DNA of 64,000 nt from Ruficoccus amylovorans (GTDB taxonomy: Bacteria > Verrucomicrobiota > Verrucomicrobiia > Opitutales > Cerasicoccaceae): assembly GCF_014230085.1 (NCBI RefSeq), contig NZ_JACHVB010000020.1:310001-374000 (forward strand). The letters are read 5' to 3'. Position 1 is the stretch's first letter. Each line of letters opens with the position of its first letter. The translations under genes and the position numbers were made by a program. Below the pieces are notes generated by a model. That model saw only the letters and a list, made by a program, of their open reading frames with translations. It was not told where the DNA came from and searched no databases. Shown one piece after another: positions 7,698-42,732 of the stretch.

Positions 7698-10298
7698 ATG
7701 GGAAAACTTTTACCGAAACGCCTGGGAACGGCGGGAACCGGCGACGCGCAACTCCTGCGCAAGCCCGAGCTACTCGCGCCCGCCGGTGACTGGGAATGCG
7801 CCCGCGCCGCCATCGAGAACGGCGCTGACGCCATTTACTTCGGTCTGGAGTGCTTTAACGCCCGGCTGCGCGCCCATAACTTCGCGACGACGGAGCTGCC
7901 CGAGATCATGGCCCGGCTCCATGAGCGCGGGGTGCGTGGCTACGTCACATTCAACACCCTGGTCTTCGCCGACGAACTGGCCCAGGCGGAGGATTTTTTG
8001 CGTAAAATCATCGCCGCCGGGACCGACGCCGCCATCGTGCAGGACGTGGGCATCTGCCGCCTCATCCGGCGGCTTTCGCCCGATTTCCCCATTCACGCCT
8101 CCACCCAGATGAGCATCACCAGCGAGGCGGGCGTGCGCTTCGCGGCGGAGCTGGGCTGTTCGGTCGCTGTGCTCGCCCGCGAATGCTCGCTGCAGGAAGT
8201 CGCCGCCATCCGCGAAAAATGCGAGGCCGACTGGGTTTCCCTGCCACTGGAGATTTTTGTCCACGGCGCGCTCTGCGTGGCCTATTCCGGCCAGTGCCTG
8301 ACCAGCGAAGCCCTCGGCGGCCGTTCGGCCAACCGGGGCGAGTGCGCCCAAGCCTGCCGCCTGCCCTACGAACTGATCAGCGACGGCAAGAACGTGCCGC
8401 TCGGGGACCGGCGCTACCTGCTCAGCCCGCAGGATCTGGCCGGTCTTGACGCGCTGCCGGGGATCGTCCGCGCCGGGGTGTCCTCGCTCAAGATCGAGGG
8501 CCGTCTCAAGAGCCCCGAATACGTCGCCGCCGTGACCGGCGTCTATCGCCGCGCCCTCGACAAGGCCTGGGCCGAACTCGGCCCGCAGGCGGAGGCTTTG
8601 GCTTCGTCTACCGCTGTCTCAGGCAAGCCTGCCGCCAGCGGAGAAACGCCCTCGGCGCAGGAGGAGCGCTACCAGTTGGACATGACTTTTTCGCGCGGCT
8701 TCCACACCGGCTGGCTGGAAGGGATCGACAACCAGCAACTCGTCCATGCCCGCTTCGGTAAAAAGCGCGGCGTGCGGCTGGGCACGGTCAAATCCACCAC
8801 CCCGCACGGGCTGCTCATTGTGCCGGAGGGGCCGGTCAAGCCTGGGGACGGCGTGGTCGTGGACCAGGGGCGACCGGACCTGCCCGAGGCCGGGGGTAAC
8901 GTCAACGCGGTCGAGCCACAGGGCAAACTGCTCTTCTTACGCCTGCACGGGGACGCGCTCCAGCGCGTCCGGATCGAGCCGGGGTCCATCGTCTGGAAAA
9001 CCGCCGACCCCGCCCTGGAGCGCACCTTGCGCCAGAGCTTCGAGGTCGAGCAGCCCCGCTACAAGCGCCCGCTGGAGGCGCGTACCGAGGGGGCGGACGG
9101 CCAGCCGCTTCGCCTGACGGTCTGGGACGAGGAAGGGCTGGAGGCCGTGGCAGAGTCCGCGCAGCCGCTCGAAACCGCCCAGCGCCAGCCGCTGGCCGAA
9201 GCCATTTTACGCAAACAGCTCGGGCGGCTGGGCGACACACCATTTTTCCTCGCCGCGCTGGATAACCGCCTGCCCGGCGGGCTCATGCTCCCGCTCTCCC
9301 TGCTCAACGCCTGCCGCCGCGAAGCAGTTGAGCGCCTGCTGGAAAAGCGCCGCACGGGCCAGCGCTGGACCTTGCTCTCGCCCTCGGACAACGAAGCCGA
9401 CGACGAAACTAAAATGACAGCCGGGCCGGAAGCGATTCCCCCCCCGTCCGCCAAGGCGAACCCGGCGCTGATTCCGCTGGTGCGCTCGCTGGAGCAGTTG
9501 GACGCCGCGCTGGAACATCCGGCGGGGGATATTTACGTCGAACTGGAGAACCCTCGCCGCTACCCCGAAGCCGTCGAGCGCGTCCGCGCCGCCGGAGCCG
9601 GGCACACGGTCTGGGTGGCCCCGCCACGGATTTTCAAGACGGGCGAGGACTGGATCATCAAGCAGTTGCTGGGCTGCGGGGCGGACGGCTTTCTGGCCCG
9701 CAACCACGAGCACCTGCGCGCCCTCGCCGGGCAGCGGCTGCGGGGGGATTTTTCGCTCAACGTGGCCAACCCGCTGACCGCCCGCTGGCTGATCGAACGC
9801 TGGGGCCTGGAGCGGCTGACCTGCTCTTACGACCTGAACGCCTCGCAGTTGGCGGCACTGCTGGAGTCGGCCCCGCCCGCGTGGTTCGAGGTCACGCTGC
9901 ACCAGCACATGCCGATGTTTCACATGGAGCACTGCGTGTTTTGCGCCTTTCTCTCCAGCGGAAAGGACTTCCGCGACTGCGGGCGGCCCTGCGAGACGCA
10001 AAGCGTCAGCCTGCGCGACCGCGTGGGCGCGGAGCACCCGCTCAAGGCCGACGCCGGTTGTCGCAACACGCTTTTCAACGCCCGGGCGCAGACCGGGGCT
10101 GAGTTCGCGCAGGACTTGCTCGGGCTCGGTGTGCGGCACTTCCGGATCGAGTTCCTCAACGAGAGCCCGCAGGAGGTCCGCGAAACGCTCCACCGCTACG
10201 CCGCCCTGCTGCGTGGCGAAATCAACGGCACGCAACTCTGGCACGAACTGAGACTTGTCAACCAGCTCGGCGTGACCCGGGGCACCCTGCGGGATTAG
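7698..10298 (+). CDS. Peptidase U32-family protein with long C-terminal extension (RlhA-like)
   Basis: An 866-residue cytoplasmic protein. The N-terminal third is the U32 TIM-barrel-like domain (starts PELLAPAGDWE) with the family signature around EIFVHGALCVAYSGQC and the cysteine-rich stretch NRGECAQACRLPYE. U32 members studied in E. coli are RNA-hydroxylation enzymes (RlhA for 23S rRNA, TrhP for tRNA) rather than simple proteases. The length and the trailing DUF3656-like middle region point to the RlhA branch. The last 130 residues carry a further Cys/His cluster (HMEHCVFCAFL, DCGRPCET), possibly metal or Fe-S binding. ATG 7698 has AGGGA upstream; an upstream TTG at 7656 in frame is less likely. 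Confidence 0.85.
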   Translation: MGKLLPKRLGTAGTGDAQLLRKPELLAPAGDWECARAAIENGADAIYFGLECFNARLRAHNFATTELPEIMARLHERGVRGYVTFNTLVFADELAQAEDFLRKIIAAGTDAAIVQDVGICRLIRRLSPDFPIHASTQMSITSEAGVRFAAELGCSVAVLARECSLQEVAAIREKCEADWVSLPLEIFVHGALCVAYSGQCLTSEALGGRSANRGECAQACRLPYELISDGKNVPLGDRRYLLSPQDLAGLDALPGIVRAGVSSLKIEGRLKSPEYVAAVTGVYRRALDKAWAELGPQAEALASSTAVSGKPAASGETPSAQEERYQLDMTFSRGFHTGWLEGIDNQQLVHARFGKKRGVRLGTVKSTTPHGLLIVPEGPVKPGDGVVVDQGRPDLPEAGGNVNAVEPQGKLLFLRLHGDALQRVRIEPGSIVWKTADPALERTLRQSFEVEQPRYKRPLEARTEGADGQPLRLTVWDEEGLEAVAESAQPLETAQRQPLAEAILRKQLGRLGDTPFFLAALDNRLPGGLMLPLSLLNACRREAVERLLEKRRTGQRWTLLSPSDNEADDETKMTAGPEAIPPPSAKANPALIPLVRSLEQLDAALEHPAGDIYVELENPRRYPEAVERVRAAGAGHTVWVAPPRIFKTGEDWIIKQLLGCGADGFLARNHEHLRALAGQRLRGDFSLNVANPLTARWLIERWGLERLTCSYDLNASQLAALLESAPPAWFEVTLHQHMPMFHMEHCVFCAFLSSGKDFRDCGRPCETQSVSLRDRVGAEHPLKADAGCRNTLFNARAQTGAEFAQDLLGLGVRHFRIEFLNESPQEVRETLHRYAALLRGEINGTQLWHELRLVNQLGVTRGTLRD

Positions 10299-35828: not shown

Positions 35829-36113
35829 TCAACCCTCCTGCCGCGCGCGCAGTTCGATAGCGTGGCCGTTGACGAGGGCGCGGGCGACCTTGCCCCGGGC
35901 ACTCTCAACGATGCGGCCAAAAGTCGCCCGCGAGACGCCCATCCGCTCCCCGGCCTGCGCGTGATGGAGCCGCTCCACGTCGGCCAGCCTGAGCGCTTCC
36001 AGTTCGTCCGCCTCCAGCACAACGACCTCCAGCTCACAGGTCGGGATGCCGCGCGGTTTGAAGACCGTTTCTCTCAGTTCGCAGCGGATGCAACGGTGTT
36101 TTTTCGGACGCAT
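35829..36113 (-). CDS. DUF134 (UPF0251) helix-turn-helix protein
   Basis: A 94-residue DNA-binding protein of the DUF134 family. The Cys-containing N-terminus (CIRCELRETVFKPRGIPTCEL) precedes an acidic block (LEADELEALRLADVE) and a helix-turn-helix (GERMGVSRATFGRIVESARGKVA). It is divergent from the NifX-like gene, 130 bases away, with a 14-bp palindrome in between. It is likely the local regulator and may sense metal or redox state through its cysteines (inference). Confidence 0.88.
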   Translation of the reverse strand: MRPKKHRCIRCELRETVFKPRGIPTCELEVVVLEADELEALRLADVERLHHAQAGERMGVSRATFGRIVESARGKVARALVNGHAIELRARQEG

Positions 36114-36184
36114 GAGACGGCTTTCGTATCGGCAGTCAATTAGTGTTCATTATCCAATAAATCCCTGGCATCAGGAAATGTTGC

Positions 36185-36213
36185 TTGACCTTTATCAAGC
36201 CGCCTTTTATGAG
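36185..36213 (+). promoter_or_regulatory. Predicted promoter of the NifX/MBL/DUF89 operon
   Basis: TTGACC (36185-36190) and TATGAG (36208-36213) are separated by 17 bases, 30 bases upstream of the NifX-like start. The palindrome at 36210 overlaps the -10 box. Confidence 0.5.
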
Positions 36214-36223
36214 CATATGCTCA
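36210..36223. promoter_or_regulatory. Perfect 14-bp palindromic operator candidate
   Basis: TGAGCATATGCTCA is its own reverse complement. It overlaps the predicted -10 box of the NifX-like operon and lies between that gene and the divergent DUF134 gene, so DUF134 binding here would repress or tune the operon. Confidence 0.65.
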
Positions 36224-36242
36224 ATTCTTTCAAGTCAAAACC

Positions 36243-36653
36243 ATGAACATCTGCCTGCCGGTTCTCGAAAATAACGGCCTCCTGAGCGCGGTTTCGCCGC
36301 ACTTTGGCCAAGCCCCCGCTCATCTGGTCATCTCCCCTGAGGGAGAAATCGTCCACTACGCGGAGAAAACCGCCTGCGGCCACGCGGGCTGTACCCCGGT
36401 CGATATTCTCGCCGCGCACGCCGTCAAGGCCATCGTCTGCCAGGGACTCGGACGCGGGGCCTTTTTCCGACTGCGAGAGCTTGGGATCGACGTTTTCCAG
36501 ACCGACTGCGAGACAGTCGATGAGGCACTGGTCGCCTATCGCCGTCACACACTCGCCCCCATGAGCGAAGACGGCCTTTGCCAGGGACACGAGCACAGTG
36601 ACCACGACCACGACGGCCATCCCCACGAGCACGGACACAATCACTGCCACTGA
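36243..36653 (+). CDS. NifX/NifB-like (Fe-Mo cofactor binding family) protein with His-rich tail
   Basis: A 136-residue protein of the dinitrogenase iron-molybdenum cofactor-binding family (MNICLPVLENN..SPHFGQAPAHLV, then a Cys/His pair in ACGHAGCTPVDIL). The last 25 residues are almost all His, Asp, Gly and Glu, an obvious metal-binding tail. No nitrogenase genes occur nearby, so a role in metal-cluster handling rather than nitrogen fixation is likely. It is the first gene of an operon with an MBL-fold protein and a DUF89 protein. Confidence 0.88.
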   Translation: MNICLPVLENNGLLSAVSPHFGQAPAHLVISPEGEIVHYAEKTACGHAGCTPVDILAAHAVKAIVCQGLGRGAFFRLRELGIDVFQTDCETVDEALVAYRRHTLAPMSEDGLCQGHEHSDHDHDGHPHEHGHNHCH

Positions 36654-36690
36654 AAACCAGCCGTACCGCGCACAGCCGGAGACATCCATC

Positions 36691-37533
36691 ATGGCCGAAA
36701 TCCGCCTCACCCTGTTGACTGAAAACACCGCCAAGGGACGAAAAATCCTCGGCGAACACGGGCTGGCCTACTGGATCGAAACCCCGGCGGGAAACGTGCT
36801 CTTTGACACCGGGCAGGGGCAGACGCTTTTTCACAACGCGGCCCTCTGCGGGGCCGACCTCGCCCAAACGGCGGCGGTCGTGCTCAGCCACGGCCACTTC
36901 GACCATACGGGCGGTCTGGAGCAGGTTCTTGACGCCGCCCCGGCGGCCAGCGTCTATTTCCACCCCGACGCGATCCTGCCCCGCTATTCTGCTGCTCCCG
37001 CCGGCGGCACCCGCACCGTCGCCGTCCCTTTTATGCACAACGGGGGTGTTTTAAAAAAGGCCGCCACCGTGCGCTACACCCGTCAGCCCACCCCGATCCT
37101 GGGCGGGCTCGTCGCCACCGGCGAAGTCCCCCGCCACTACGCCGACGAGGACACGGGCGGAGACTTTTTCCTTGATGCCGACGGCCACCGGCGCGACCCC
37201 ATCAACGACGACCAGTCACTCTACTTTGAAAGCACCGAAGGGCTCGTGCTCATCCTCGGCTGCGCCCACGCCGGAGTTGTCAATACCCTGCACCACGTGG
37301 CCAGGCTGACCGGCACGCAGCGTATCCACGCCGTCATCGGCGGAATGCACCTGCTCTATGCTGATCCGGCCCGGTTGGAGCGCACCTATGCCGCGTTCCG
37401 CGACTACGACGTGCGCCTCATCGCGCCCTGCCACTGCACCGGTATCCGGGCCGTGGCCGGGTTCTGGAACCACTTCCCCGAGCGCTGCGCCGAGGCGCAC
37501 GCCGGTAAACGCTTCACCTTCCGCCTGCCATGA
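36691..37533 (+). CDS. MBL-fold metallohydrolase (dihydropterin synthase-like subgroup)
   Basis: A 280-residue metallo-beta-lactamase-fold protein. Metal ligands are in SHGHFDHTGG (about residues 67-76), GCAHAGVVN and the C-terminal His of CHCTG. The overall pattern (VLFDTGQG, IGGMHL) matches the subgroup containing methanopterin-biosynthesis dihydropterin phosphate synthases and many uncharacterised members. ATG 36691 is used; the frame extends upstream only through low-complexity Thr/Pro. It follows the NifX-like gene by 37 bases and overlaps the DUF89 gene by four (ATGA). Confidence 0.85.
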   Translation: MAEIRLTLLTENTAKGRKILGEHGLAYWIETPAGNVLFDTGQGQTLFHNAALCGADLAQTAAVVLSHGHFDHTGGLEQVLDAAPAASVYFHPDAILPRYSAAPAGGTRTVAVPFMHNGGVLKKAATVRYTRQPTPILGGLVATGEVPRHYADEDTGGDFFLDADGHRRDPINDDQSLYFESTEGLVLILGCAHAGVVNTLHHVARLTGTQRIHAVIGGMHLLYADPARLERTYAAFRDYDVRLIAPCHCTGIRAVAGFWNHFPERCAEAHAGKRFTFRLP

Positions 37534-38408
37534 AAACGAGCATCGACTGTTTCAGTTGCTTCATCCGCCAAGGGCTGCGGGCGGCCCGGCTGGCAGGCGC
37601 GTCCGAGAAGCAGCAAGACCTCGTGGTGCGCGCCATTATGGGGCACCTGCTCGGCGGCAACCCCGACGAGTCCCCCGTCGAGCTGGCCCGCTCTGTTCAG
37701 CAGATCGTGAGCGAGATAACCGGCCAGAGCGACCCTTACGGCGACCTCAAATCCCTCAGTAACGCCCAGGCTGCCGCATGGGTCGAAAACCTCAAAAACA
37801 CCCCGAGCACGCCTCAGACCGACCCGCTCGATCATGCCGTCCGGCTGGCGGTGGCCGGGAACGTCATCGACTACGGCCCGCAAACCCCCTTCAACCTGGA
37901 GAGCACGCTCGAACGCTGCCTGCGCGAGCCCTTTGCCATCGACCACCTGCCCTTGCTCCGGGAGCGCCTTCAAAGCGCCCGCACCCTCGCCTACCTGGCC
38001 GACAACGCGGGCGAAATCATCTTCGACCGCGTGCTGCTGGGCGAGTTGCTGGCCCGTTTCGGGCTGGAGAAAATCCTTTTCGTCGTGCGCGAGGAAGCAT
38101 TCCTCAACGACGCTCTGGCTGAAGATGCCGAAACCGCCGGCATCCTTGAGCTCGACCAGGTCGAACTCGTTCGTATGGGCCCCGGCATCCCCGCCCCCGG
38201 CACGCCGGGCCGGGCCGTCTGGGAACAGGTCCGGCGCTGCGATGTGCGCCTGGCCAAGGGGCAGGCCAACGCCGAATGCTTCGACACCGAACCCGATTTT
38301 TTCCTCCTTTTCATGGTCAAGTGCGAGATGGTCATGCGGGCGCTGGAGGAAAAGGGGCTGGGCACGACCCGGTTGGGAGACATTGTGTTGACCCACAGCG
38401 GATATTGA
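37530..38408 (+). CDS. DUF89/ARMT1-like damage-control phosphatase family protein
   Basis: A 292-residue protein of the DUF89 family. Features are the N-terminal CFSCFIRQ motif, LADNAGEIIFDRVLL (metal and phosphate site), and AKGQANAECFD near the C-terminus. Characterised members are metal-dependent phosphatases that remove damaged sugar or cofactor phosphates. Its ATG overlaps the MBL gene stop. It completes the NifX-MBL-DUF89 operon, suggesting a shared metabolite or metal task. Confidence 0.85.
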   Translation: MKTSIDCFSCFIRQGLRAARLAGASEKQQDLVVRAIMGHLLGGNPDESPVELARSVQQIVSEITGQSDPYGDLKSLSNAQAAAWVENLKNTPSTPQTDPLDHAVRLAVAGNVIDYGPQTPFNLESTLERCLREPFAIDHLPLLRERLQSARTLAYLADNAGEIIFDRVLLGELLARFGLEKILFVVREEAFLNDALAEDAETAGILELDQVELVRMGPGIPAPGTPGRAVWEQVRRCDVRLAKGQANAECFDTEPDFFLLFMVKCEMVMRALEEKGLGTTRLGDIVLTHSGY

Positions 38409-38543: not shown

Positions 38544-40043
38544 ATGAGGCTACGCTTGATCATCCTGTCAGTTCTCTGCGGACTGACCTCCCTGCACGCG
38601 TTCGAACGCCGCGAAGTCAATCTGGACTACGTCACCGGACTGGCCCGCGAACTGGCCGCCCAGCCCTACGTCCCGGCCAAACCTGAGCTTCCGCCTGAAC
38701 TGGCTGCGCTGGATTTCGACGGCTACCGCAAGATCCGCTTCAACAAGGACAAGGCCCTCTGGAAAACCGCCAATCTGCCCTTCCAGGTCGATTTTTTCCA
38801 CAACGGGTACATTTTTCCGGAAACCGTTGAGATATTCGAATACAGTAACACGCACACCCAGCAGATTCCCTACGTCAAGGACTTCTTCAACTTCGACATC
38901 AACGGCATCAACCCCGACGAATGGGACCTACAGGGCTACGCCGGACTGCGCGTGCGCACCCCGCTGAACAAGCCCGATGTCTTCGACGATGTGCTCGTCT
39001 TTCAGGGAGCCTCGTATTTCCGCGCCCTCGGCCGGGACCAGTACTACGGCCTCTCCGCCCGCGGACTGGCCATCGGCACTGGCGGCCCCAATGAGGAATT
39101 TCCCCGCTTCAGCCGCTTCTGGCTGAAAAAACCCGCTTCCGATGCCCGCTCGCTGGAAATCCTTGCCCTGCTGGAGGGCCAGAGCGTGACCGGGGCCTAC
39201 CGCTTTGTTCTCACTCCCGGCGAAAATACCCAGGTCGAAGTCACGGCCCGCGTCTTCCGCCGCGAGGGAGCCCGCGGTGACATCTACTTCGCCCCGCTCA
39301 CGAGCATGTTCTGGTACGGCGAGGCCCGCGACAACCACATGGGCGACTGGCGACCCGAGATCCACGACTCTGACGGCCTGCTCATCCACAACGGTGACAC
39401 CTGGACCTGGCGCCCCCTCACCAACTACCCCGGCAACCACCTGACCGCCTTTCCCGTCGAGCAGCTCCACGGCTTCGGCCTGCTCCAGCGCGACCGCGAC
39501 TTTAACAACTATCAAGACCTCAGCGAGCACTACCACCGCCGTCCCTCGGCCTGGATACAGACCCGCGGACAATGGCCCACGGGCGAAGTCGTCCTCTTTG
39601 AATTCCATCAGGACACGGAAACCGTCGATAACATGGGCGCGTTCTTCCGCCCCGACACGGCCCCCGAAGCAGGCCAACCCTACGAAATCGCCTACACGGT
39701 CAATTTCCAGCTGGCCGATCCCGACAAGTCGCTTAACCGGGTCGAAGCCACCCGGATCGGCAGTTCCTGGCAGTACGAGGGAGCCACCCGGTTCATTATC
39801 GATTTTTCCGCGCCCGAGAACTTCAAACCCGTGGAAATCCGCGACCTGCAAGCCAACCTGAGCGTGGAAGGAGCCGAGATCATCCAACAGGCGCACATCA
39901 TTTACAATACCGTCACCTCCGGCCTGCGCGTGCACTTCGACTTGCGCGCCGATCCCGACACCGAACTGGCGAATCTTAAACTCCAACTGACAAAGGCCGA
40001 CAAGCCGCTCAGCGAGACCTGGGTCTATCAATGGCGACCGTGA
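38544..40043 (+). CDS. opgG: Periplasmic glucan biosynthesis protein OpgG/MdoG
   Basis: A 499-residue periplasmic protein needed to make osmoregulated periplasmic glucans. The signal peptide (MRLRLIILSVLCGLTSLHA) is followed by the MdoG domain (LDFDGYRKIRFNKDKALW, LPFQVDFFHNGYIFPE, YFRALGRDQYYGLSARGLAIGT, and the C-terminal immunoglobulin-like part). ATG 38544 is the natural start. It overlaps the next gene by 13 bases and is in one operon with opgH. Confidence 0.95.
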   Translation: MRLRLIILSVLCGLTSLHAFERREVNLDYVTGLARELAAQPYVPAKPELPPELAALDFDGYRKIRFNKDKALWKTANLPFQVDFFHNGYIFPETVEIFEYSNTHTQQIPYVKDFFNFDINGINPDEWDLQGYAGLRVRTPLNKPDVFDDVLVFQGASYFRALGRDQYYGLSARGLAIGTGGPNEEFPRFSRFWLKKPASDARSLEILALLEGQSVTGAYRFVLTPGENTQVEVTARVFRREGARGDIYFAPLTSMFWYGEARDNHMGDWRPEIHDSDGLLIHNGDTWTWRPLTNYPGNHLTAFPVEQLHGFGLLQRDRDFNNYQDLSEHYHRRPSAWIQTRGQWPTGEVVLFEFHQDTETVDNMGAFFRPDTAPEAGQPYEIAYTVNFQLADPDKSLNRVEATRIGSSWQYEGATRFIIDFSAPENFKPVEIRDLQANLSVEGAEIIQQAHIIYNTVTSGLRVHFDLRADPDTELANLKLQLTKADKPLSETWVYQWRP

Positions 40044-40594
40044 ACCAGCCCGAGCACGACCTCGAAGCCTGGGACCGCGCCTATCGTAAAGTCGCCTCCC
40101 TGCTTCGCGCCTATCAGGTCCGCAATGCCTACCTGCGTCACGAACTGGCGCGCGACATCGTACGTGAGTCGCTCCAGTTTTACCTGGAGGGGCAGGAACC
40201 GGAAGCCCTCGCGGTCGAGAACCTGCGCCACCGGCTCTCGCTCTGGCTCAAGCGGCTCAACGACGCCACCTCCGAGCCGGGCCGCAACGGCTACACCGAG
40301 GCCCGCATGCTGACCATTGTGCAGGCCTCCCGCATCATCCAGCGCTGGCCCCGACAGTTTCTCTACACCGGCGAGTTCGAGCCCGCGCTGCTGGAAGCCG
40401 TCAAGAAAGCCCGCATCATCGGCGTGCCCAACCTGCATCGAGCCTCCATCGGCGTGCCGCAGATCCAGTTCGAAACCGTCAGCGACATGGCCGAAGGCAC
40501 CCGTCGCCTGTTCAGCAACTCGATCCTGCGCATCTGCCTTTTCACCGCCGCCGTCCTCGCAGGGATACTCACCGTCATCAGCCTGGCCCGATGA
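40031..40594 (+). CDS. Unknown protein between opgG and opgH, C-terminal membrane anchor
   Basis: A 187-residue protein of unrecognised family. The first 150 residues are charged and helical; the last 20 or so (ILRICLFTAAVLAGILTVISLAR) form one membrane helix, so most of it probably faces the cytoplasm. It overlaps opgG by 13 bases and opgH by four (ATGA), so translation is coupled to both. It is not the missing N-terminus of OpgH, because the downstream protein keeps both of its first membrane helices. It may be a regulatory or assembly partner of the glucan synthase (inference). Confidence 0.75.
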   Translation: MATVNQPEHDLEAWDRAYRKVASLLRAYQVRNAYLRHELARDIVRESLQFYLEGQEPEALAVENLRHRLSLWLKRLNDATSEPGRNGYTEARMLTIVQASRIIQRWPRQFLYTGEFEPALLEAVKKARIIGVPNLHRASIGVPQIQFETVSDMAEGTRRLFSNSILRICLFTAAVLAGILTVISLAR

Positions 40595-42732
40595 GCAACG
40601 CCCCCCAACCATCCACCACTCCCGCCGGAGGCTGCACACGGCTCGTTTTTTTCGCACTGCACGGGCTGCTGACCATCGCCGCCGGGGCCATTTTCTGGGA
40701 TCTGCTCAACCGCACCGGTTTCACCGTGACCAGCTTTCTCCTGCTGGTGCTTTTCGTCATCCTTTTCGCGCACATCGCCTTCGGTTTTCTTCAGCCGCTC
40801 TTCGGGCTGTTTGTCGCACTGCGCCGGGACGATCCGCGCCGCATCACCCGCACGATCGATCTCGACCAGGACCCGGCCTCGATCAAGCTCGCCAGCCGCA
40901 CGGCTCTGATTTTCCCCATCTACAACGAAGACCCGGAGCGCTTTTTCGCCGGGGTGGAAACGGTCTATTCCCGCCTCAAACAACTCGGCCAGATTGAGCA
41001 TTACGATGTCTTTGTCCTGAGCGACTCGACCGACGCCGACAACTGGATCGCTGAGGAAATCGCCTGGAACGAAACCGCCCTGCGCCTCGGCGCGCACGGC
41101 AAGCTTTTCTACCGCCGCCGCCGCAACAACATCAACCAGAAGTCCGGCAACGTGGCCGACTTCTGCCGCCGCTGGGGCGGCTCCTACGACTACATGCTCT
41201 GCTTCGACGCAGACAGCCTGATGAGCGGCGAGTGCATCGTGCGCATGACCGAGATGATGGAGCGCAACCCGACCGTTGGCATCCTCCAGACCATGCCCGG
41301 CCTCTTCAACGGTCGAACCCTGCTGGCGCGGCTCCAGCAGTTCACCAACCGGGTGCACGGCTATCTCTCCGGCGCGGGTCTCAACGCCTGGCAGCAGGAC
41401 TACGGCAACTACTGGGGCCACAACGCCATCATTCGCCTGAAGCCGTTTCTGAAATACTGCACGCTGCCGGAACTTCCCGGCGTGGAGCCGCTGGGCGGAC
41501 GCGTGCTCAGCCATGACTTCGTCGAAGCCGTGCTCATGCACAAGGCCGGTTACGAGGTCTGGCTCGCCTACGACCTGGAGGGCAGTTACGAGGAGATGCC
41601 CCCCACCCTGATCGACCTGGCCAAGCGTGACCGCCGCTGGTGCCAGGGCAATCTCCAGCACGCCTGGCTGGTGCTCTTTGGAAACATTCCCAACCAGAGC
41701 CGTATCCACATGATCAATGGCATCATGGGCTACCTGTCCTCGCCGTTGTGGCTGCTTTTCATCGGGCTGACCACGCTGGGCACCTACCGCTGGGTCGGCA
41801 GCGACCTGACTCTTGTCGTGCGCGGCAGCAGCCTGCCGTGCATGCCCCAGTCGCTGGCCGATCAGGGGCTTCTTCTGCTGGGGCTGACCGCTGTCATGAT
41901 CTTCGGCCCCAAGCTCATGACCATTCTCTGGCTTGCCCTGCGCCCGCAGCGGGCAAAGGGCTTTGGCGGGTGGTTCCGAGCCACGGCCTCGATCCTGCTG
42001 GAGGTTTTCGTTTTCACACTCATCGCCCCAGCCATGATGCTTTTTCACAGCGGGTTCGTCGTCACCATTTTACTTGGACAAAAGGTCCGCTGGGCCACCC
42101 AGGTCCGCAACTCCGGCGACGGGACTTCGCCCGAACAGGCAATCTCCGCTCACGGCGGTCACCTGACGGTCGGCCTGCTCTGGGGCGTGCTGGCCTGGAC
42201 GATCAGCCCGGTACTATTCTGGTGGATGAGCCCGGTGCTGCTGGGCTGGGTACTCGCCATTCCGCTCTCCATCTACACCAGCCGTGAGAGCGTGGGTCGG
42301 TGGTTCCGGGCGCGGGGGCTGCTCCTGACACCGGAGGAAACCCGACCGCCGCGTGAGGTCCGCACCCTGCGCGCGCTTGCCCGCGACAGCGAAAAGCTTC
42401 CCGACTCGGTTGAAAGGTTTGAAGACATCGGACTGCTCGGCGTCGTGCTAGACCCGTACATTAACGCCCTCCACGGCCTGCTCCTGCGCGAGAAATCCCA
42501 ACCCGACCCGACGGTGCGCGAGGTCCTGCTGAAGCTCGAAGACAAGCTCCTGCAGGAAGGAGCCGAGTCCCTCAGTAACGCCGAAAAAATGCGTCTGCTC
42601 CTGGACTACGAATCCAGCGTCCGCCTGCACAAGCAGGTCTGGTCTCAGCCCGACAATAAACTCAGCCCCTGGTGGCGGCAGGCCAGTAGGAGCTTCAATT
42701 ACCGCAGCCTCTTTCACCACCGCAGCGAATAG
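40591..42732 (+). CDS. opgH: Glucan glucosyltransferase OpgH/MdoH
   Basis: A 713-residue inner-membrane GT2-type glucosyltransferase that polymerises and exports the glucan backbone. Two N-terminal helices precede the catalytic domain with LIFPIYNEDPERFFAGVE, DVFVLSDSTD, the FYRRRRNNINQKSGN block, FDADSLM (DxD-like), SHDFVEAVLM and RDRRWCQGN (the QxxRW-like acceptor motif region). Several further helices follow. The cytoplasmic N-terminal extension of E. coli OpgH is missing here. The start ATG overlaps the preceding gene. Confidence 0.95.
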   Translation: MSNAPQPSTTPAGGCTRLVFFALHGLLTIAAGAIFWDLLNRTGFTVTSFLLLVLFVILFAHIAFGFLQPLFGLFVALRRDDPRRITRTIDLDQDPASIKLASRTALIFPIYNEDPERFFAGVETVYSRLKQLGQIEHYDVFVLSDSTDADNWIAEEIAWNETALRLGAHGKLFYRRRRNNINQKSGNVADFCRRWGGSYDYMLCFDADSLMSGECIVRMTEMMERNPTVGILQTMPGLFNGRTLLARLQQFTNRVHGYLSGAGLNAWQQDYGNYWGHNAIIRLKPFLKYCTLPELPGVEPLGGRVLSHDFVEAVLMHKAGYEVWLAYDLEGSYEEMPPTLIDLAKRDRRWCQGNLQHAWLVLFGNIPNQSRIHMINGIMGYLSSPLWLLFIGLTTLGTYRWVGSDLTLVVRGSSLPCMPQSLADQGLLLLGLTAVMIFGPKLMTILWLALRPQRAKGFGGWFRATASILLEVFVFTLIAPAMMLFHSGFVVTILLGQKVRWATQVRNSGDGTSPEQAISAHGGHLTVGLLWGVLAWTISPVLFWWMSPVLLGWVLAIPLSIYTSRESVGRWFRARGLLLTPEETRPPREVRTLRALARDSEKLPDSVERFEDIGLLGVVLDPYINALHGLLLREKSQPDPTVREVLLKLEDKLLQEGAESLSNAEKMRLLLDYESSVRLHKQVWSQPDNKLSPWWRQASRSFNYRSLFHHRSE

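Follow-up and report, generated by a model that had tools for sequence, protein, structure and literature searches.

DUF134 proteins as candidate autoregulators of a small metal-sulfur regulon, each with a private palindromic operator

A gene for a DUF134 protein lies back to back with an operon for a NifX-like protein, a metallo-beta-lactamase-fold (MBL) hydrolase and a DUF89 phosphatase, and a palindrome lies between them. This arrangement raises the question of whether the DUF134 protein is a regulator that acts on the palindrome and, if so, which process it would control. The initial annotation of the 64,000-nucleotide stretch of DNA analyzed here (the window) proposed such a role, within a metal- or redox-responsive metabolite-repair system. 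The searchable literature gives little guidance, as DUF134 is almost absent from it and it yielded neither binding nor expression data; a literature text search using GCATATGC, the COG numbers and PF02001 returned nothing relevant. Most text matches to “DUF134” stem from longer names that begin with it, among them DUF1343 and DUF1345.

The locus and its control region

The four genes were located as claimed, with Pfam profile matches that all exceed the cut-offs, and the palindrome is an exact TGAGCATATGCTCA.

35829-36113, minus strand: DUF134 protein, 94 aa (PF02001, E = 1e-20), a predicted homodimeric HTH regulator
36185-36213, plus strand: putative NifX-operon promoter, assigned by eye, with a -35-like TTGACC and a -10-like TATGAG
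36210-36223, no strand: predicted operator TGAGCATATGCTCA, unique in the genome and conserved across phyla
36243-36653, plus strand: NifX-like protein, 136 aa (PF02579, E = 3e-16), with the tail GHEHSDHDHDGHPHEHGHNHCH
36691-37533, plus strand: MBL-fold hydrolase (PF00753) with an HxHxDH metal motif
37530-38408, plus strand: DUF89/ARMT1-like metal-dependent phosphatase (PF01937, E = 1e-46), with DNAGE at residues 158-162

The DUF134 gene is transcribed divergently from the other three, and the MBL stop and DUF89 start overlap by 4 nt. The palindrome ends 20 nt 5' of the NifX-like start codon and is the only perfect palindrome of 14 bp or more in this region, and no other site within one mismatch of it was found in the 4.5 Mb genome. 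By eye, TTGACC (36185-36190) and TATGAG (36208-36213) are separated by a 17 bp spacer, such that the palindrome would cover the -10-like box and the start region of the NifX operon. An automatic consensus promoter scan at a strict threshold called no promoter at the locus, and the promoter is therefore given here as an assignment by eye. Comparison with two same-genus relatives that have the locus revealed TTGAC and TTATGAGCATAT as conserved blocks. A second inverted repeat, GCTTGACCTTTATCAAGC (36183-36200), was discarded because it is missing from same-genus relatives.

Conservation of the palindrome and its association with DUF134

Perfect palindromes of 14 bp are not very rare in 64 kb, with three of at least this length present in the window, and the site could in principle have arisen by chance. 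DUF134 loci were compared at three levels: the host order, the host class, and across bacteria (80 named loci). In the combined set of 104 loci, from which recognized duplicates were removed, a site with at most two mismatches from TGRGCATATGCYCA is found upstream of DUF134 in 67 loci belonging to at least 11 phyla. Sites with at most one mismatch are concentrated in the same position: the sequence upstream of DUF134, 29.6 kb in total, contains 61 of them, and the remaining 1,284 kb contain 15. Across bacteria, where the 80 named loci are those that match a single query best and not a random sample, 52 of 79 cross-phylum loci have, in the 250 bp preceding DUF134, a best site that differs from TGRGCATATGCYCA at no more than two positions, compared to 0.3 expected from dinucleotide shuffles. 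According to record titles, the phyla with the site include Verrucomicrobiota, Nitrospirota, Bacteroidota, Deltaproteobacteria, Acidobacteria, Calditrichaeota, Omnitrophota, Planctomycetes, WOR-3 and BRC1, and sites with variant arms occur in Spirochaetes and Elusimicrobia. The palindrome is thus recovered in relatives that have the gene set, and the initial annotation survives on this point.

Within the order and class, the motif is present at nearly every DUF134/NifX junction inspected. In the 286 genomes of the class, exact copies of the motif occur in 10 of 22 with DUF134 and in 4 of 264 without (p = 6e-10); the latter sites (L160, L161, L164 and L168) adjoin no regulon family, as checked, and are regarded as chance matches. 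The searched genomes contain one to a few sites, usually a single one located at DUF134. The 22-bp operator consensus is RTTATGRGCATATGCYCATAAY. In many genomes, about 40 bp separate its center from the downstream DUF134 start codon, and its position relative to the promoter varies among genomes. A recognizable site just upstream of DUF134 is missing in 35 of the 104 loci, about 8 of which have a site at another unit of the regulon. Conservation across phyla and co-occurrence with DUF134, together with the regulon placement and residue-base covariation described below, refute the idea of a chance palindrome, to which we assign a negligible probability.

The DUF134 protein and its recognition helix

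The DUF134 protein matches PF02001 over residues 2-87 (74.5 bits, cut-off 27) and has the KPxGIP, DELEALRLAD and SRxTFxRI motifs seen in alignment A1 and in the 104-locus alignment, the last being the recognition helix, which reads GVSRATFGRIV in the window protein. An AF2 model (pLDDT 86.9) has an HTH fold, with sigma region 4 (SigR, SigE) and DeoR HTH domains as the top Foldseek matches (probability 1.0, E about 0.02-0.2). As these E-values are weak, the resemblance to sigma region 4 is a likeness at the level of the fold; searching PDB sequences with the DUF134 profile yielded weak HTH matches only. The protein would act as a homodimer. In having a predicted HTH and a private palindrome at its own or a divergent promoter, DUF134 resembles local autoregulating HTH repressors, but in contrast to the known ones, the searchable literature describes no operator, signal or regulon for it.

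The recognition helix and the operator covary. Among 55 loci with strong sites, 51 have Arg at one recognition-helix position and 4 have Asn or Leu, with SRQTFGN or SRQTFGL replacing the usual SRQTFGR or SRQTFDR. A change from G/C to T/A on both operator arms (TTRGCATATGCYAA) is found in all four non-Arg loci and in none of the 51 Arg loci. Two further non-Arg loci with weaker sites, from two further phyla, agree (L125, TTGGCATATGCTAT; L111, TTAGCATTCGCCAA), and the six loci taken together belong to Omnitrophota, Verrucomicrobiota, Elusimicrobia and one betaproteobacterium. In another four non-Arg loci, no site lies close to DUF134. If this helix residue reads the base, an Arg to Asn substitution would switch the preference toward TTRGCATATGCYAA / TTAGCATATGCTAA. 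In several genomes, DUF134 and NifX domains are fused, and this subfamily has the helix SRSTAGR or SHSTAGR and its own palindrome of the GGGAATATTCCC type, which reads TTATGGGATTATTCCCATAA in one member. The predicted HTH fold, the private operator and the covariation support the proposal that DUF134 is a DNA-binding regulator, and several independent lines of sequence comparison strongly support the palindrome as the operator that it probably recognizes.

The cysteines of DUF134, described earlier as conserved, are so within the genus but not family-wide, as Cys is present at C8, C11 and C26 in 12, 17 and 11 of the 104 loci, respectively. The 104-locus alignment contains no conserved Cys/His set in DUF134 that would point to metal sensing, and sensing through these cysteines was rejected because they are not conserved.

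A small set of genes behind the distant sites

All 15 sites that are distant from the DUF134 upstream region in the 104 loci precede genes of one small set.

Before a 4HBT thioesterase: L031, L069, L091, L097
Before a CobW-type metallochaperone: L070, L071, L076, L077, L078
Before an MBL gene: L079, L142
Before a pyridine-nucleotide oxidoreductase with a rhodanese domain (persulfide-reductase-like): L117
Before a NifX-like gene: L132, L155
Before a DUF134-containing operon: L067

The CobW gene is followed by DUF89 in L070, L071 and L078, and is divergent from Mrp in L076 and from MBL in L077. In G335, an exact site is found at a DUF89 gene on a contig other than that of DUF134, and a DUF89 gene has its own operator in trans (L162). 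The placement of these sites strongly supports a small regulon that the operator would control.

Among the neighbors of DUF134 in the 104 loci, a NifX-like partner is near-constant, MBL is found in 26 and DUF89 in 15. The 132 genomes of the host order show the same association: PF02579 is present in 17 of 18 genomes with DUF134 and 5 of 114 without, MBL in 8 of 18 and 4 of 114 (p = 9e-6), and DUF89 in 8 of 18 and 0 of 114. In the same-genus genome G020, an in-frame deletion leaves about 33 residues of MBL, and the NifX-like and DUF89 genes on either side are intact. MBL and DUF89 are true but optional members, and MBL is dispensable. Neighborhood and co-occurrence data thus agree in supporting the four families as a linked unit, and their linkage is seen in other genomes. 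The regulatory half of the earlier claim is far stronger than first stated.

The NifX-like, MBL and DUF89 proteins

In the NifX-like protein (60.1 bits against PF02579, cut-off 26.3), the CTP cysteine is conserved, and the Cys/His tail, rich in His, Asp and Cys, is common to Verrucomicrobial relatives. Its matches to hepatocyte growth factor receptor were treated as spurious. The genome contains two PF02579 matches, NifB and the window gene, of which the latter is the only stand-alone one.

PF02579 proteins with known cargo handle metal-sulfur species. IssA of Pyrococcus furiosus (PF02579/IPR003731) stores thioferrate and, like the window protein, is small, consists of a stand-alone PF02579 domain and ends in a low-complexity tail (PMC5524996). 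The IssA tail is cationic and aromatic/Gly-rich, whereas that of the window protein is Cys/His-rich, and the passages on IssA consulted here mention neither DUF134 nor an operator (PMC5524996). The PF02579-type domain of MrpORP binds a [3Fe-4S] cluster and Orp8 binds a Mo-Cu cluster (PMC6345978). The ORP and MrpORP proteins of Desulfovibrio thus share with the window protein a domain that binds metal-sulfur clusters, and their genes lie beside those of Mrp/MinD-type ATPases, but the orp operons are controlled by sigma54 with a cognate regulator (PMC6345978), in contrast to DUF134 and the palindrome here, and the window module has no adjoining Mrp or MinD. Mrp and MinD also adjoin DUF134 in several loci. 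Against NF041136 (MrpORP, a two-domain Mrp + Di-Nase protein), the single-domain NifX-like protein scored 21.4 bits, with a threshold of 450.

In the MBL protein, SHGHxDH is invariant in alignment A2, and its best PDB relatives are 2p4z, 3h3e/TM1679 and 7dck. The DUF89 protein matches PF01937 over its full length (159.8 bits) and resembles the DUF89/ARMT1-like damage-control phosphatases (PDB 2g8l, 2ffj) in this match and in its DNAGE motif.

What does the regulon serve?

The initial annotation noted that nitrogenase and Fe-Mo genes are absent. This is correct for the window, but not for the genome, in which nifH (G000:C12:128397) lies beside nifB, nifE, nifN/nifK-type and nifV-like genes on another contig; by gene content, the source genome is that of a diazotroph. 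The NifX-like protein might then be a stand-alone NifB-co/FeMo-co carrier that DUF134 tunes to demand. Consistent with this notion, it has the same Pfam domain as NifX/NafY of nitrogenase, the genome has nifH and nifBENK and no other stand-alone PF02579 protein, and nifH co-occurs with DUF134 both in the order (13 of 18 genomes with DUF134, 4 of 114 without, p = 5e-11) and in the class (10 of 22 and 22 of 264, p = 2e-5). The same-genus genome G039 has neither DUF134 nor nifH. This association could, however, reflect a shared anaerobic lifestyle, and four order genomes (G013, G049, G105, G130) have DUF134 without nifH. The gene itself lies outside the nif cluster (contig C20, with nif on C12), the only operator in the genome is at the NifX operon and not in the nif cluster, the Cys/His tail and predicted DUF134 control set the protein apart from NifX/NafY, and no nif role is known for MBL, DUF89 or CobW. 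Among DUF134 genomes from the named loci, which are mostly from other phyla, 40 of 50 have no nifH, and the module is therefore not nitrogenase-specific. It may serve nitrogenase in this organism, but a dedicated accessory function is unlikely.

Somewhat less probable still is metabolite repair, in which DUF89 and MBL would remove damaged phosphoesters or cofactors, with the NifX-like protein supplying the metal. DUF89 proteins are metal-dependent damage-control phosphatases (PMC8669784), and the confinement of DUF89 in the order to DUF134-positive genomes and its operator in trans in L162 also speak for this reading. Against it, DUF89 and MBL occur optionally while the NifX-like partner is near-constant, and the window DUF89 scores 122.6 bits, far below the 440-bit NCBIfam equivalog cut-off. 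The direction of control also allows two readings. Sigma region 4 contacts RNA polymerase, and given the predicted fold of DUF134 and an operator centered some 40 bp upstream of its start codon in many genomes, at varying positions relative to the promoter, DUF134 could be an activator on the same operator, or a switch that its ligand turns from repressor into activator. The window site over the -10/start region is, however, a classical repressor position, and local repressors typically regulate themselves through an operator of their own. Activation is accordingly viewed as improbable, about on a par with the nitrogenase accessory function.

A model of DUF134 as a local repressor

The most economical reading is that DUF134 acts as a local repressor on a regulon that buffers metal-sulfur species. 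We put at roughly 60% the probability that DUF134 proteins form a previously undescribed family of sigma-4-like dimeric autoregulators, each in charge of a small metal-sulfur regulon, and that the one in the window represses the NifX-like/MBL/DUF89 operon. DUF134 proteins would be small homodimeric HTH regulators with a sigma region 4-like DNA-binding domain, each binding a private palindromic operator of the RTTATGRGCATATGCYCATAAY type. In the window, a dimer on 36210-36223, over the -10/start region, would repress the operon, and in most relatives, where the site is also in front of DUF134 itself, the protein would be autoregulated. A metal or redox response, as the initial annotation suggested, is plausible from the company that DUF134 keeps (CobW, Mrp, NifX-like proteins and persulfide reductase), and the signal would most likely be the state of a metal-sulfur pool, such as iron-sulfide, thiometallate or the metal itself. 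The pool may be read by DUF134 directly, or possibly through the NifX-like protein or its cargo, since NifX-like proteins accompany DUF134 almost constantly and, in several genomes, form a fusion with it. An imbalance in the pool would lift repression, and the Cys/His-tailed NifX-like scaffold or carrier would be made, together with the metal-dependent enzymes MBL and DUF89, which may use, route or clean up after metal-sulfur chemistry. Elsewhere, a CobW-type metallochaperone, Mrp, a thioesterase and a persulfide reductase would be co-induced. Homodimer formation, repression and not activation, the signal, and the substrates and biochemical output of the enzymes are what we infer from this arrangement.

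Implications for the DUF134 family

In a broader form, which we hold at about even odds, DUF134 proteins would be bacteria-wide metal-sulfur-responsive transcription factors with a CATATG-centered palindrome and a decodable helix, controlling a conserved regulon of NifX-like scaffold, CobW chaperone, Mrp, MBL, DUF89, thioesterase and persulfide reductase, and the NifX domain would be the sensor in the fused subfamily. DUF134, so far a domain of unknown function, thus becomes open to testing as a regulator, and the operator, combined with the rule linking helix residue and base, would make DUF134 targets predictable in any genome. NifX/IssA/ORP-like proteins, CobW metallochaperones, an MBL hydrolase and DUF89 phosphatases would be placed under one regulator, which may provide a handle on how anaerobes and diazotrophs sense and buffer their metal-sulfur pools.

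Partners and fusions of the DUF134-NifX pair

The DUF134 and PF02579 (NifX-like) domains are fused at loci L036-L039 (genomes G049, G033, G094 and G104), which carry their own palindrome of the GGGAATATTCCC type, and at L040 (G090), where a palindrome was looked for and none was found. The commonest extra partner of DUF134-NifX, present at 30 of the 104 DUF134 loci, is a 4HBT hot-dog thioesterase with CxxCG at its N-terminus. In the same-genus relative G020, an in-frame internal deletion shrinks the MBL gene to a remnant, MPDIRAIMGFW...FELA.

L091:8330-8785, 4HBT thioesterase (example)
L031:9157-9669, 4HBT thioesterase (example)
L026 (G020), reverse complement 8290-8421, MBL remnant, flanked by NifX-like and DUF89 genes

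Directly 3' of the module in the window (38544-42732) lie genes for an MdoG periplasmic glucan protein and then a glycosyltransferase in an MdoH-like position.

Nitrogenase genes elsewhere in the genome

Another contig of the window's genome (G000) carries a cluster of nifH, nifK, nifE, nifN-like, nifB, nifV-like and flavodoxin genes, in which the nifB product bears a NifX domain. A ferritin gene separates nifK and nifE.

G000:C12:108000-127900 (L206), plus G000:C12:128397-129215, nif cluster
L206:7570-8613, minus strand, DraG-like ADP-ribosyl hydrolase gene
L206:8555-9367, minus strand, 270-aa ORF, DraT-like by eye, adjoining the DraG-like gene

The 270-aa ORF had no NCBIfam match at E 1e-20. 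The DraG-like gene beside this DraT-like ORF suggests that the nitrogenase of this organism is under ADP-ribosylation control.
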